Assembly: GCA_016215605.1 (NCBI GenBank)
Contig: JACRJB010000031.1
Coordinates: forward strand, 1 to 64,000
Source of the DNA: Rhodopseudomonas palustris
Lineage (GTDB): Bacteria; Pseudomonadota; Alphaproteobacteria; Rhizobiales; Xanthobacteraceae
Direction of reading: 5' to 3'
DNA length: 64,000 nt
In this document: in pieces, positions 46,258-49,536 of the stretch
How the letters are laid out: each line of letters opens with the position of its first letter
How positions within the stretch are numbered: the first letter of the stretch is position 1
Position numbers and translations under genes: made by a program
Notes under the pieces: model-generated
The model's database searches: none
What the model was told of the DNA's origin: nothing
Seen by the model: only the letters and a program-made list of their open reading frames with translations

Positions 46258-46383
46258 GTCGATCTCCTCTCGTGTTGCGACTGCTTCATCGTCAGCTTCG
46301 ACGTCTGGAATACGCGATCGCCGCGCCGATGGCGATTCATCCCTGCAGTCGCGATCGACGCCGCTTCCCGCCGCGGCGCTGCA

Positions 46384-46710
46384 TCACTCCGACGGCGTCT
46401 CCTTGATGCGCTTCGGATCCTGGTCCTGACCGTCCCACAGCTTCGGCTTTTCGAGCCAGCGCTGGATGAAATTCCACGAACGGCGATAGCCGTTGTGCGG
46501 CAGCGTGCAGGCGCTGCAATCCTTGCGCCGGAGGCCGTTCCGATCGGTGAACACCTGATACGGCCCGGGACACTCGTAGGCGATCAGCGGGCAGTAGCAG
46601 AACAGGCAATTGAATTCCCGCTCGACGCCGCGGTGACACGGCAGGAACGGGCAGGCCTCGTTGGTGAAGCCCTTGAAGGCCTCGTTCGTCGTGGTGTCCT
46701 TGGGCTCCAT
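46384..46710 (-). CDS. Cysteine-rich small-domain protein (PF04071-like), behind a cobalamin riboswitch
   Basis: The 108-residue protein has eight cysteines in the pattern CPFLPCHRG...NCLFCYCPL...ECPGPY...DCSACTLPH, with the NCLFCYCPL core typical of the PF04071 cysteine-rich small domain. That family is thought to bind metal and often sits beside cobalamin genes, but its biochemical role is unknown. AAGGAG six bases before the ATG at 46710 fixes the start; the frame continues upstream without support. A cobalamin riboswitch on the same strand (46915-47099) lies about 200 bases upstream, making B12 control of this gene likely. It may assist cobalt or corrinoid handling; that is inference. Confidence 0.85.
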   Translation of the reverse strand: MEPKDTTTNEAFKGFTNEACPFLPCHRGVEREFNCLFCYCPLIAYECPGPYQVFTDRNGLRRKDCSACTLPHNGYRRSWNFIQRWLEKPKLWDGQDQDPKRIKETPSE

Positions 46711-46914
46711 GTCCACTCCTTGACCAGCGGCGCATCGGCGCACGACCGCGCGCGGCGCCGACCGTCGCAGGGTCGCGGCGCGGCTGTGCCTCGCGTAAAA
46801 TTGTTCAAGCGACAGCAGCGCGATCGGCGCTGCAACGACGGCGAACTACGTCTTGATCGTCATGGAATTCTCCGCTGTCGACCCACCGTCGACATCAACT
46901 GGACCATTGCCTGC

Positions 46915-47099
46915 GGCCGGTCTCCTGGCTCGCGGATGTTGTCCCGATCGCCTTCCCGAGCGCGAGAACGATCGCTCAGTGGCATGTCGATCGCGGACGA
47001 TCCGCTCACAGTTGCGGGGGCAGCCGCGGAATTGGCGATCTCTCGCCGCACCGCATTCCCGTTTCACCTCTCTTGCGAGAGGCACCGAAGGCGACACGA
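46915..47099 (-). promoter_or_regulatory. Cobalamin riboswitch (minus strand)
   Basis: Read on the minus strand, the element runs from GGTGCCTCTCGCAAGAGAGG through GGGAATGCGGTGC and GCCCCCGCAACTG. It continues through the B12 box GCCACTG (46977-46983 on the plus strand) to ACATCCGCGAGCCAGGAGACCGGCC. These are the conserved core blocks of adenosylcobalamin riboswitches in order. It lies about 200 bases upstream of the cysteine-rich PF04071-like gene. A short hairpin TCGACGGTGGGTCGA (46878-46892) follows and may be part of the switching platform. It is an inverted near-copy of the riboswitch at 47304-47485. Confidence 0.93.
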
Positions 47100-47303
47100 A
47101 AAGAGCACGGCTCTGCTCCCCGCGCAAGCGCGATCCGAAATCGGCCACGGCGCGCGAACCAACGAAGGACAGCAGAAGGCGTCGCCCACGATCGCGTGTG
47201 AAGCAGACGAATAGCGAGTCGGTATGCACCTTCGTCTGAGACGCGGCATTCTGGTTGCTATCAATCTTGCGTCGGGCCCGGCGCCGTGCTCTTGTCGGTG
47301 CGT

Positions 47304-47485
47304 CTACGGTGCCTCTCGCAAGAGAGGTGAAACAGGGAATGCGGTGCGGCGTGAAAACGCCAAGGCCGCGGCTGCCCCCGCAACTGTAAGCGGATCGGTT
47401 TCGATCACACCAGCCACTGAGACCGCAGAAGCGGCTTCGGGAAGGCGATCGGAACAACATCCGCGAGCCAGGAGACCGGCCGGAG
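47304..47485 (+). promoter_or_regulatory. Cobalamin riboswitch (plus strand) of the cobT operon
   Basis: Conserved blocks appear in order: GGTGCCTCTCGCAAGAGAGG, GGGAATGCGGTGC, GCCCCCGCAACTG, B12 box GCCACTG (47413-47419), GGGAAGGCGAT, and CATCCGCGAGCCAGGAGACCGGCC. The aptamer ends about 210 bases before cobT. TCGACGGTGGGTCGA at 47502-47516 repeats the element found after the minus-strand copy. A GC hairpin (CGTCGTCC 47644-47651 with GGACGACG 47663-47670) lies just before the cobT start and may take part in repression. Confidence 0.95.
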
Positions 47486-47698
47486 ATTTGTGCAATGCCA
47501 TTCGACGGTGGGTCGAAGAAGGACGTTCAGATGCCACATCCGCTTTCCACGTAGCACCACGCTATCGCCGTCGGCATAGTTTCGACGATGCGGTCCGCGC
47601 TTGCTCGCGACCGCGCGGAGACGCTTGTCCGATCGCATCGAGTCGTCGTCCGCGGACGCGGAGGACGACGCATGTCTCCTGCTCATCGCTGATCGCCC

Positions 47699-48763
47699 AT
47701 GCACGCCGCATTGCCCGCCCCGCATTTCTGCACGATCGACGCCGTCGATCATGCGCTCGAGCCGATCCTGCGCGGCCGGATCGACGCCAAGGCCAAGCCG
47801 CCGGGCTCGCTCGGCCGGCTGGAAGATCTCGCCGTGCAGCTCGGCATGATCTGGCATCCGATGCCGCCGCGCGCGGAGCGCGCCACGGTGTTCATCTTCG
47901 CGGCTGATCACGGCATTGCGGCCGAAAGCGTGTCGCCCTATCCGGCGAGCGTGACGCGATCGATGGTGAGCGCCTATCTCGCCGGATGCGCCGGCATGAA
48001 CGTGCTGGCGAAGGCCGCGGGCGCCGATGTCTGCGTCGTCGATGCCGGCATCGACGACGATCTGCCGCCCTGCCCCGGCCTGATCGATCGCAAGATCGCG
48101 CGCGGCACCCGCAATGCCAGCCGCGAGCCGGCGATGACCACCGATCAGGCGCGGCGCGCGATCGCCGCCGCGGTCACGCTGGTCTGCGATGCGATCGACG
48201 GCGGCATCGACATCGTCGCGATCGGCGAGATGGGGATCGGCAACACCACCTCCGCCGCGCTGATCACGCACCGTCTCGCCGCGGCGCCGATCGCCGATTG
48301 CGTCGGCCGCGGCGCCGGGCTCGATGCCGCCGGCGTCGCCCACAAGCTCGCGGTGGCGGCGCAAGCCGCCGCGCGCACCACGGCCACCGCCCCGCTCGAC
48401 GTGCTCGCTGAATTCGGCGGCTTCGAAATCGCGATGATGGCCGGCGCGGTGCTCGCCGCCGCGGCGCGGCGCCGTCCGGTGGTGATCGACGGCTTCATCG
48501 CCAGCGCCGCCGCCTTGGTCGCGGTGCGGCTACATCCGGAGGCGCGCGACTATTGCGTGTTCTCGCATCGCTCCGCGGAACGCGGCCATAAAATTCTCCT
48601 CGAGACCATGGCGGCGACGCCCTATCTCGATCTCGGCCTGCGGCTCGGCGAAGGCACCGGCGCGCTGATGGCGATTCCGCTGCTCCGCGCCGCCGCCGGC
48701 ATCCTCACCGATTTCGCCGACCTGTCCGACGTTCTCGCCGGCACGCTCGGGCGACGATCGTGA
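47699..48763 (+). CDS. cobT: Nicotinate-nucleotide--dimethylbenzimidazole phosphoribosyltransferase
   Basis: The 354-residue protein matches CobT (CobU in Pseudomonas denitrificans naming). It has KPPGSLGRLEDLAVQLG at the N-terminus, FIFAADHGIAAESVSPYP, AIGEMGIGNTTSAA, VVIDGFIASAAAL and the C-terminal LRLGEGTGALMAIPLL with the catalytic Glu. It makes alpha-ribazole 5'-phosphate from dimethylbenzimidazole and nicotinate mononucleotide for the lower loop of cobalamin. No Shine-Dalgarno is evident before the ATG at 47699; the leader ends with a hairpin. It is controlled by the riboswitch at 47304-47485 and overlaps cobS by four bases (GTGA). Confidence 0.95.
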   Translation: MHAALPAPHFCTIDAVDHALEPILRGRIDAKAKPPGSLGRLEDLAVQLGMIWHPMPPRAERATVFIFAADHGIAAESVSPYPASVTRSMVSAYLAGCAGMNVLAKAAGADVCVVDAGIDDDLPPCPGLIDRKIARGTRNASREPAMTTDQARRAIAAAVTLVCDAIDGGIDIVAIGEMGIGNTTSAALITHRLAAAPIADCVGRGAGLDAAGVAHKLAVAAQAAARTTATAPLDVLAEFGGFEIAMMAGAVLAAAARRRPVVIDGFIASAAALVAVRLHPEARDYCVFSHRSAERGHKILLETMAATPYLDLGLRLGEGTGALMAIPLLRAAAGILTDFADLSDVLAGTLGRRS

Positions 48764-49536
48764 TCCGCCTGTTGCGGCCTCTGCTGAACGCGATCCAGTT
48801 CATGACCGTGATGCCGATGCTCGGCGCCACGCGGCTCGACGACGACTGGGTGCTGGCCGCCCGCAAGTACTTCCCTCTGGTCGGCGTGCTGATCGGGCTG
48901 GTCAGCGCCGGCGTGTTGCTGCTCGCCTCCGGGCTCTGGACCGGCGCCGTGCCGGCGACGCTGGCGATCCTCGCCGGCGCGGTCGTCACCGGTGCGCTGC
49001 ACGAAGACGGCGTCGCCGACACCGCGGACGGACTGTTCGGCGGCCGGACGCGCGAGCAGCGGCTCTCGATCATCAAGGACAGCCGGATCGGCAGCTACGG
49101 CGCAGTGATGCTGGTGGCGAGCTTGGTGCTGCGCATCGTCGTGCTCGCCAGCCTGCCGCCCTGGCTGGGCGCCGCCGCGCTGATCGCCGGCCACAGCGTC
49201 GGGCGCGCCGGCATCGTGCTGGTGATGTCGGTGCTGCCCTATGCCGGCAATCCGGCGACCGCCAAGCTGAACTACCCGGCCGAGCCGATCGGTCACGCCG
49301 ACGCCGCGGCGGCCGCGGCCTTCACCGCGCTCGGCATGCTGTGGCTGGGGATCTCCGCCCCTACGGCGGCCGGCGTCGGACTCGCTGCCGCCGCGATCCT
49401 GGCGCTGCTACCAGCGATGGCGGCGCGTCGCCTGCTCGGCGGCTATGTCGGCGACGTGCTCGGCGCCACCGAACAGTTTGCCGAGATCGGGATGCTGCTG
49501 GGCGTCGCTGCGATCTCGGGCCAGAGTCAGATCTGA
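48760..49536 (+). CDS. cobS: Adenosylcobinamide-GDP ribazoletransferase (cobalamin synthase)
   Basis: The 258-residue polytopic protein matches CobS/CobV. It has LLNAIQFMTVMPM near the start and the catalytic loop GALHEDGVADTADGLFGGRTREQRLSIIKDSRIGSYG, rich in Asp for Mg2+. About five to six membrane helices follow. It joins alpha-ribazole (phosphate) to adenosylcobinamide-GDP at the inner membrane, the last step of cobalamin assembly. Translation starts at a GTG whose TG overlaps the TGA of cobT, so the two genes are coupled. Its 3' end overlaps the convergent phosphatase-like gene by ten bases. Confidence 0.95.
   Translation: MIRLLRPLLNAIQFMTVMPMLGATRLDDDWVLAARKYFPLVGVLIGLVSAGVLLLASGLWTGAVPATLAILAGAVVTGALHEDGVADTADGLFGGRTREQRLSIIKDSRIGSYGAVMLVASLVLRIVVLASLPPWLGAAALIAGHSVGRAGIVLVMSVLPYAGNPATAKLNYPAEPIGHADAAAAAAFTALGMLWLGISAPTAAGVGLAAAAILALLPAMAARRLLGGYVGDVLGATEQFAEIGMLLGVAAISGQSQI

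Follow-up and report, generated by a model that had tools for sequence, protein, structure and literature searches.

A kissing interaction between the aptamer loop L5 and loop L13 stabilizes the P13 hairpin in other corrinoid riboswitches (PMC10653944). In Mycobacterium tuberculosis, the B12 riboswitches of ppe2 and metE are associated with upstream open reading frames (uORFs); at ppe2 the downstream gene requires translation of the uORF, uPPE2, which overlaps ppe2 (AUGA), the mode of coupling being termination–reinitiation (PMC11260477). The pe20 Mbox of the same species, a Mg2+ switch, is followed by a uORF and then by a gene further downstream, and acts with Rho-dependent termination (PMC12810186).

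Here we analyse a divergent pair of cobalamin riboswitches in Rhodopseudomonas palustris, within a window of 64,000 nucleotides (positions 1 to 64,000 of contig JACRJB010000031.1, assembly GCA_016215605.1). The parts of the locus are ordinary, namely two paralogous RF00174 riboswitches; its novelty lies in mini-ORFs of locked length. In a literature search of partial coverage, no paper came up that describes such frames after cobalamin riboswitches of alphaproteobacteria.

Two paralogous riboswitches and their genes

The preliminary description of the window had proposed two cobalamin riboswitches in inverted order, one serving cobT–cobS and the other a cysteine-rich gene. Both halves do match the RF00174 covariance model over its whole length (gathering score 31.5 bits), and Pfam matches identify the served genes as cobT–cobS on the plus arm and a PF04071 gene on the minus arm (Table 1). 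Aligned to each other, the arms agree in 204 of 255 columns, 8 columns being gaps (E 5e-60), which marks them as paralogous. The aligned stretch begins roughly 40 nt ahead of the aptamer and extends to TCGACGGTGGGTCGA, at about 80% likeness, so that the shared unit comprises the aptamer, the promoter-like element before it and, from the expression platform, P13, as had been supposed. The 15-base TCGACGGTGGGTCGA lies where it had been placed in both arms; of the upstream sequences, CCGTGCTC was correctly located at 47284–47291 (+) and GAGCACGG occupies 47103–47110 (−), ten nucleotides from the 47113–47120 originally given. Both arms are predicted to respond to B12.

Table 1. Features of the divergent riboswitch locus, in window coordinates
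Feature	Position	Strand	Evidence
Cysteine-rich small protein, 108 aa, PF04071	46384..46710	minus	Pfam 51.6 bits, cut-off 27; own Shine–Dalgarno AAGGAG
Untranslated spacer, 135 nt, C roughly equal to G	46711..46845	minus	Composition
Mini-ORF, 5 codons, MTIKT-stop	46846..46863	minus	5 codons in 13/13 genus leaders, 5/5 outside genus
Shine–Dalgarno GGAG of 5-codon mini-ORF	46870..46873	minus	Sequence
P13 hairpin, loop L13 = GGTGG, holds 15-mer 46878–46892	46876..46894	minus	Sequence; L13–L5 association
Cobalamin riboswitch aptamer, cysteine-rich gene arm	46898..47104	minus	RF00174, 128.6 bits, model positions 1–189
Promoter-like element CTTGCG...CCGTGC, minus arm	47105..47128	minus	TTGN2-N12..20-YRTGST pattern
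Promoter-like element CTTGCG...CCGTGC, plus arm	47266..47289	plus	TTGN2-N12..20-YRTGST pattern
Cobalamin riboswitch aptamer, cobT–cobS arm	47290..47498	plus	RF00174, 112 bits, model positions 1–189
P13 hairpin, loop L13 = GGTGG, holds 15-mer 47502–47516	47501..47517	plus	Sequence; L13–L5 association
Shine–Dalgarno AAGGA of 7-codon mini-ORF	47519..47523	plus	Sequence
Mini-ORF, 7 codons, MPHPLST-stop	47531..47554	plus	7 codons in 16/16 genus cobT-type leaders
Untranslated spacer, 144 nt, C above G	47555..47698	plus	Composition
cobT, nicotinate-nucleotide--dimethylbenzimidazole phosphoribosyltransferase	47699..48763	plus	PF02277; TIGR03160 above cut-off
cobS-like, adenosylcobinamide-GDP ribazoletransferase	48760..49536	plus	PF02654; NCBIfam cobS models match below cut-offs

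The window genome holds seven RF00174 matches by covariance-model search, and 16 genomes of the genus hold 136, of which 135 were analysed together and the remaining one (G003:C1:373048) was examined singly. Aptamer identity over the 541 within-genome pairs of these 135 riboswitches averages 63.3%, with a 95th percentile of 72.1%. The window pair, at 80.3%, ranks third among them, indicating that the arms are more alike than unrelated cobalamin riboswitches.

TCGACGGTGGGTCGA constitutes the P13 hairpin of the expression platform. Its loop L13 is able to pair with the aptamer loop L5 through the outer four of five positions, leaving a central mismatch. The two loops are associated without exception over 54 hairpins: L5 CCCCC accompanies L13 GGTGG (21 cases), GGCGG (8) or GGGTGG (1) in 30/30, L5 CCCTC accompanies GATGG (9) or GAAGG (2) in 11/11, and 13 further hairpins from other platforms (GGGCGG) also go with L5 CCCCC. 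The change from G-C to A-U in the L5–L13 pairing was probably one event on the tree. A search for the B12 box combined with this P13 pattern gave 32 occurrences, spread over 21 of 296 genomes of the family; the reversed control pattern gave 0.

The GAGCACGG-type sequence is part of a wider element, TTGN2-N12..20-YRTGST, which is carried by 39 of the 42 P13-subfamily riboswitches, the majority of which stand unpaired, and by none of 93 riboswitches outside the subfamily. The 42 were chosen by P13 sequence pattern, and the set slightly exceeds that of the 41 sites whose P13 loop has 5 nt. The element may be a promoter; no match to the sigma-70 consensus was found within 46300–48000. Because it is a subfamily trait that also occurs at unpaired loci, the similarity of the flanks is no proof of local duplication, although it had been read as a sign of one. 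A CTTCGTCTKA-type sequence, at 47228–47240 (+) in the window, precedes most cobT-type aptamers by about 60 nt and in the alignment is missing upstream of the cysteine-gene aptamers; it is possibly a protein-binding site.

The cysteine-rich gene has a good Shine–Dalgarno sequence of its own, and none is evident at cobT. Beyond the cobS-like gene, past an opposite reading frame, lies cobQ. The window genome carries a second cobT (G000:C17:85845-86870, plus strand), 59% identical to the window CobT, with an opposite-strand riboswitch nearby (85508–85715). Close relatives of the cysteine-rich protein are found largely in Rhodopseudomonas, Rhodoblastus, Rhodovulum, Rhodobacter, Thiohalocapsa and Rubrivivax, which are genera of purple phototrophs, together with others, and there is a hint that the B12-controlled cysteine-rich gene is linked to phototrophy.

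Reading frames of fixed length behind P13

Missing from the preliminary description was a mini-ORF after each P13. A Shine–Dalgarno sequence lies 2–4 nt behind P13, and in 29/29 genus leaders of both kinds an ATG lies 30–35 nt after the aptamer end; in the window arms this ATG is the start of the mini-ORF, not that of the metabolic gene. Ahead of the cysteine-rich gene the frame is exactly 5 codons long, in all 13 leaders from the genus and in all five tested from other genera of the family; in the 16 genus cobT-type leaders, including an orphan arm without cobT in genome G012, it is always exactly 7 codons long. The leaders are related by descent, so that these counts are not independent draws. 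As background, of the 94 ATGs in the window that are preceded by a Shine–Dalgarno sequence, 3 open a 5-codon frame and another 3 a 7-codon frame. Outside the genus, a motif scan of 30 fetched loci (28 of them outside it) found no 7-codon cobT-type leader.

The encoded peptides are diverse, both among the 5-codon frames (MTIKT, MMIQT, MYTRS, MTAVD, MTEFS, MIIRF and MPIRS) and among the 7-codon frames (MPHPLST, MLHRPPT, MHRRRYA and MTDLPRA), and the stop codons TAG, TGA and TAA are all used. Mean sense-codon identity is 0.38 over 11 representatives of the 5-codon and 0.47 over 8 of the 7-codon ORF, all of them distinct and hand-picked. Across six close genomes, column identity falls from 0.90 in the 5-codon ORF to 0.67 in the next 30 columns, and from 0.94 in the 7-codon ORF to 0.74 behind the stop. 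The invariant length and the drop in conservation at the stop indicate that this short ORF between riboswitch and gene is kept by selection. From its stop to the gene start, the distance in the window is 135 nt for the cysteine-rich gene and 144 nt for cobT, within a range of 116–238 nt across leaders.

Two variations on these leaders were seen. At locus L199 (G060) most of the mini-ORF is repeated in tandem directly after it, with ATCAAGCACAGTTAA occurring twice; the first stop is kept and the frame still has 5 codons. Just before the window cobT ends another short frame, MSPAHR-stop (47672–47692, plus strand), whose Shine–Dalgarno sequence GGAGG falls in a predicted hairpin; its counterpart in G008 and G010 begins with GTG or TTG and runs in frame into cobT.

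The position behind P13 is occupied differently at other loci. A second cobT copy in G001 and G003 has its own start exactly at the mini-ORF position, as does a TonB-receptor-like gene in G249, named from its sequence by inspection. This indicates that the AUG at that place is the regulated one, which both leader types of the window appear to have given over to the mini-ORF. Within the BtuC-like branch of the subfamily, six genomes have a 16–17-codon frame at this position, and five have a frame that leads straight into a long one. We considered the 16–17-codon uORF, which ends in CRARC, as a conserved peptide and rejected the idea, because its overlap with the permease reading frame explains the conservation.

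At 30 of 69 loci a motif scan, rather than the covariance model, placed a riboswitch before the cysteine-rich gene, in a set that overlaps the genus genomes. The 11 with this P13 sequence all carry the 5-codon ORF. The other 19, mostly from relatives of Rhodobacter and Rhodovulum, have a GGGC-type P13, a distance of about 100–220 nt between riboswitch and gene, and, over the range tested, no mini-ORF closed by a stop (10 without a candidate start, 9 with a frame into the gene). This indicates that the link between riboswitch and gene can work without the mini-ORF, which would then be an addition in one lineage.

Age of the divergent pair

The pair had been taken for a recent duplication. The same divergent arrangement is present in G008 and G010, two other Rhodopseudomonas-group genomes, to whose corresponding arms the cysteine-gene arm of the window is 88.9% (G008) and 90.4% (G010) identical and the cobT arm 89.0% and 92.8%, against 80.3% between the two arms of the window. 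In a 55-row tree the three cobT arms group together (96/97) and the three cysteine-gene arms do so more weakly (89/63); the two arms of one genome are never joined, the backbone is unresolved and neither arm type is one clade overall. As the arms are nearer to their orthologues than to each other, the duplication was not recent, and we rejected recency on the identities and the tree.

Related genomes retain the arrangement to different degrees. In G012 (R. pseudopalustris) the pair is kept, the cobT arm faces an opposite reading frame with no match to cobT behind it, and an intact-looking cobT with its own riboswitch is found elsewhere in the genome. The orphan cobT-type riboswitch of R. pseudopalustris (L082, G012:C6, 2515–2621; L008, 3018–3124) has its aptamer, P13 and 7-codon mini-ORF intact. 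In G002, G009 and G014 only the cysteine-gene riboswitch is left at this place. These arrangements suggest that the pairing is older than several species splits. By sequence comparison, the two elements appear to be old paralogous translation-type riboswitches that were already a divergent pair before at least three species separated, and have remained one.

Divergent cobalamin riboswitch pairs number eight, in six of the 16 genus genomes. Four of them, in G001 and G003 (L077, L078, L079 and L083), have arms only 60.6–64.4% identical, so that divergent pairing alone is no proof of duplication; these pairs sit between other B12-related genes, cobT and cobQ included.

A recent inverted duplication in place, or repeated gene conversion keeping the arms alike, seems to us highly improbable. 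The 80.3% identity would suit either process, and conversion could also account for the cobT arm of the three paired genomes agreeing with the cysteine arm at 8 of 35 diagnostic columns, of which five lie in the P2 stem, and for stretches of the P2 region where the two arms of a genome rise to 0.97 identity. However, the cobT state is kept at 23 of the 35 columns, four of the five P2 columns pair together, and a similar P2 stem in related riboswitches would allow simple retention; each arm is, moreover, closer to its orthologues than to the other arm. If the pair is old, similar divergent riboswitch pairs need not mean recent duplication.

Proposed relay to the gene and relation to known leaders

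Sequence comparison establishes the aptamers, P13, the L5–L13 covariation, the old pairing and the conserved mini-ORF length. We think it reasonably probable that the two elements are paralogous riboswitches of ancient origin acting on translation, and that what they control directly is the access of ribosomes to a minimal ORF, an output then passed to a distant gene. With B12 bound, the aptamer loop L5 would kiss L13 of P13, and the docked hairpin, the 3' strand of which ends about 14 nt before the AUG, would keep the 30S subunit off the adjacent Shine–Dalgarno sequence. The sequence so blocked would serve the mini-ORF, of 5 codons ahead of the cysteine-rich gene and 7 ahead of cobT, and not the gene. 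The 3' strand of P13 falls inside the footprint of an initiating ribosome, so that docked P13 probably blocks initiation at the mini-ORF sterically. Under B12 scarcity, ribosomes would initiate and terminate on the mini-ORF, which would be so short that a ribosome covers the region from P13 to the stop throughout, and the effect of this occupancy would reach the gene, over 100 nt further downstream, most probably through the exclusion of Rho or RNase from the nascent leader.

Translation of the mini-ORF and its relay to the gene, through Rho or RNA decay, we infer. The gaps of 135 and 144 nt are too long for termination–reinitiation of the ppe2 kind, and only the cysteine-rich gene has an evident Shine–Dalgarno sequence of its own; the relay therefore probably operates at the RNA level. 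C exceeds G in 15/15 cobT spacers, that of the window lying at the 80.6th percentile, a composition that would suit Rho. The cysteine-gene spacers have C above G in 9/13 (mean skew 0.04), with no excess in that of the window, so that Rho is not favoured there. A transcriptional riboswitch with an intrinsic terminator was considered and rejected, the spacers having no GC-rich hairpin followed by a T run; the region 46300–48000 contains one terminator-like site (expected 1.0), and neither spacer contains any. Peptide-independent protection of more than 100 nt by an ORF this short remains conjectural. Tentatively, the item switched could be the mere presence of one ribosome on the 5- or 7-codon ORF, with the peptide irrelevant and the gene more than 100 nt downstream; such a ribosome parking site, though rather doubtful, would be neither leader-peptide attenuation nor translational coupling.

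Two other readings let the gene be reached differently. The riboswitches might act on their genes directly, the mini-ORFs being functionless relics of an older start codon. That the second cobT copy and the TonB-receptor-like gene start behind P13 shows how a module of P13, Shine–Dalgarno sequence and AUG can be left over, and in the 19 of 30 loci described above the riboswitch precedes the cysteine-rich gene without a mini-ORF. A relic would nevertheless not be expected to hold its length at exactly 5 or 7 codons through the divergence of its sense codons (to 0.38 and 0.47) and changes of its stop, and the genes begin 116–238 nt past the mini-ORF stop, beyond the reach of P13; we consider this reading unlikely. 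Still less probable, in our view very much so, is long-range translational attenuation, in which the mini-ORF region pairs with the ribosome-binding site of the gene and a ribosome opens the pairing. The mini-ORFs of the six closest R. palustris-group cysteine-gene leaders are indeed complementary to the gene start region (−18.2 to −26.0 kcal/mol; −23.2 kcal/mol in G014), and 18 leaders average −16.9 for cognate against −14.5 for non-cognate partners, but the six best leaders are near-copies. Such pairing is absent from both window arms and from the cobT leaders: the window cysteine-gene arm reaches −13.3 against a non-cognate mean of −14.5, the window cobT arm −9.7 against −9.1, and 15 cobT leaders −10.6 against −11.0.

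If ribosome access to the mini-ORF is what is switched, a riboswitch regulates a distant gene by gating ribosome entry to a minimal ORF of which the length, not the peptide, is conserved, and does so in purple bacteria that are simple to culture. The invariant 5 and 7 codons would then be a sharp, testable constraint on leader protection by a translating ribosome.

With the translational RF00174 type of Escherichia coli btuB and env8HyCbl, as presented in PMC10653944, the arms share a whole-model aptamer, a P13 loop that can pair with L5 and a Shine–Dalgarno sequence adjoining P13, whereas here the Shine–Dalgarno sequence just 3' of P13 serves a 5- or 7-codon mini-ORF and not the gene. The usual P13-gated layout is thus present in having a Shine–Dalgarno sequence and AUG directly after P13, but the AUG is not that of the metabolic gene. 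Nearer at hand, the BtuC-like permease uORF of 16–17 codons, in the same subfamily and in six genus genomes, has the same order of P13, Shine–Dalgarno sequence and start; unlike the mini-ORFs, it overlaps the start of the permease (seen in G003, the permease being named from its sequence by inspection), so that ordinary translational coupling suffices there.

The M. tuberculosis ppe2 and metE leaders likewise have a B12 switch that acts on translation, with a short ORF as its first target (PMC11260477); in contrast to ppe2, the gap here is 135–144 nt and the ORFs have only 5 or 7 codons and an invariant length, and we claim no relationship. The pe20 Mbox resembles our leaders in its riboswitch-controlled uORF, distant gene and translational platform, with Rho shown for pe20 and conjectured here; the pe20 uORF2 peptide is highly conserved, whereas the mini-ORF peptides diverge and only their length is kept (comparison with PMC12810186). 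Riboswitch-controlled uORFs are thus already known in M. tuberculosis, and the length-locked mini-ORFs are new; if our reading is correct, they add a second bacterial group, far from the mycobacteria, with control by riboswitch and uORF.
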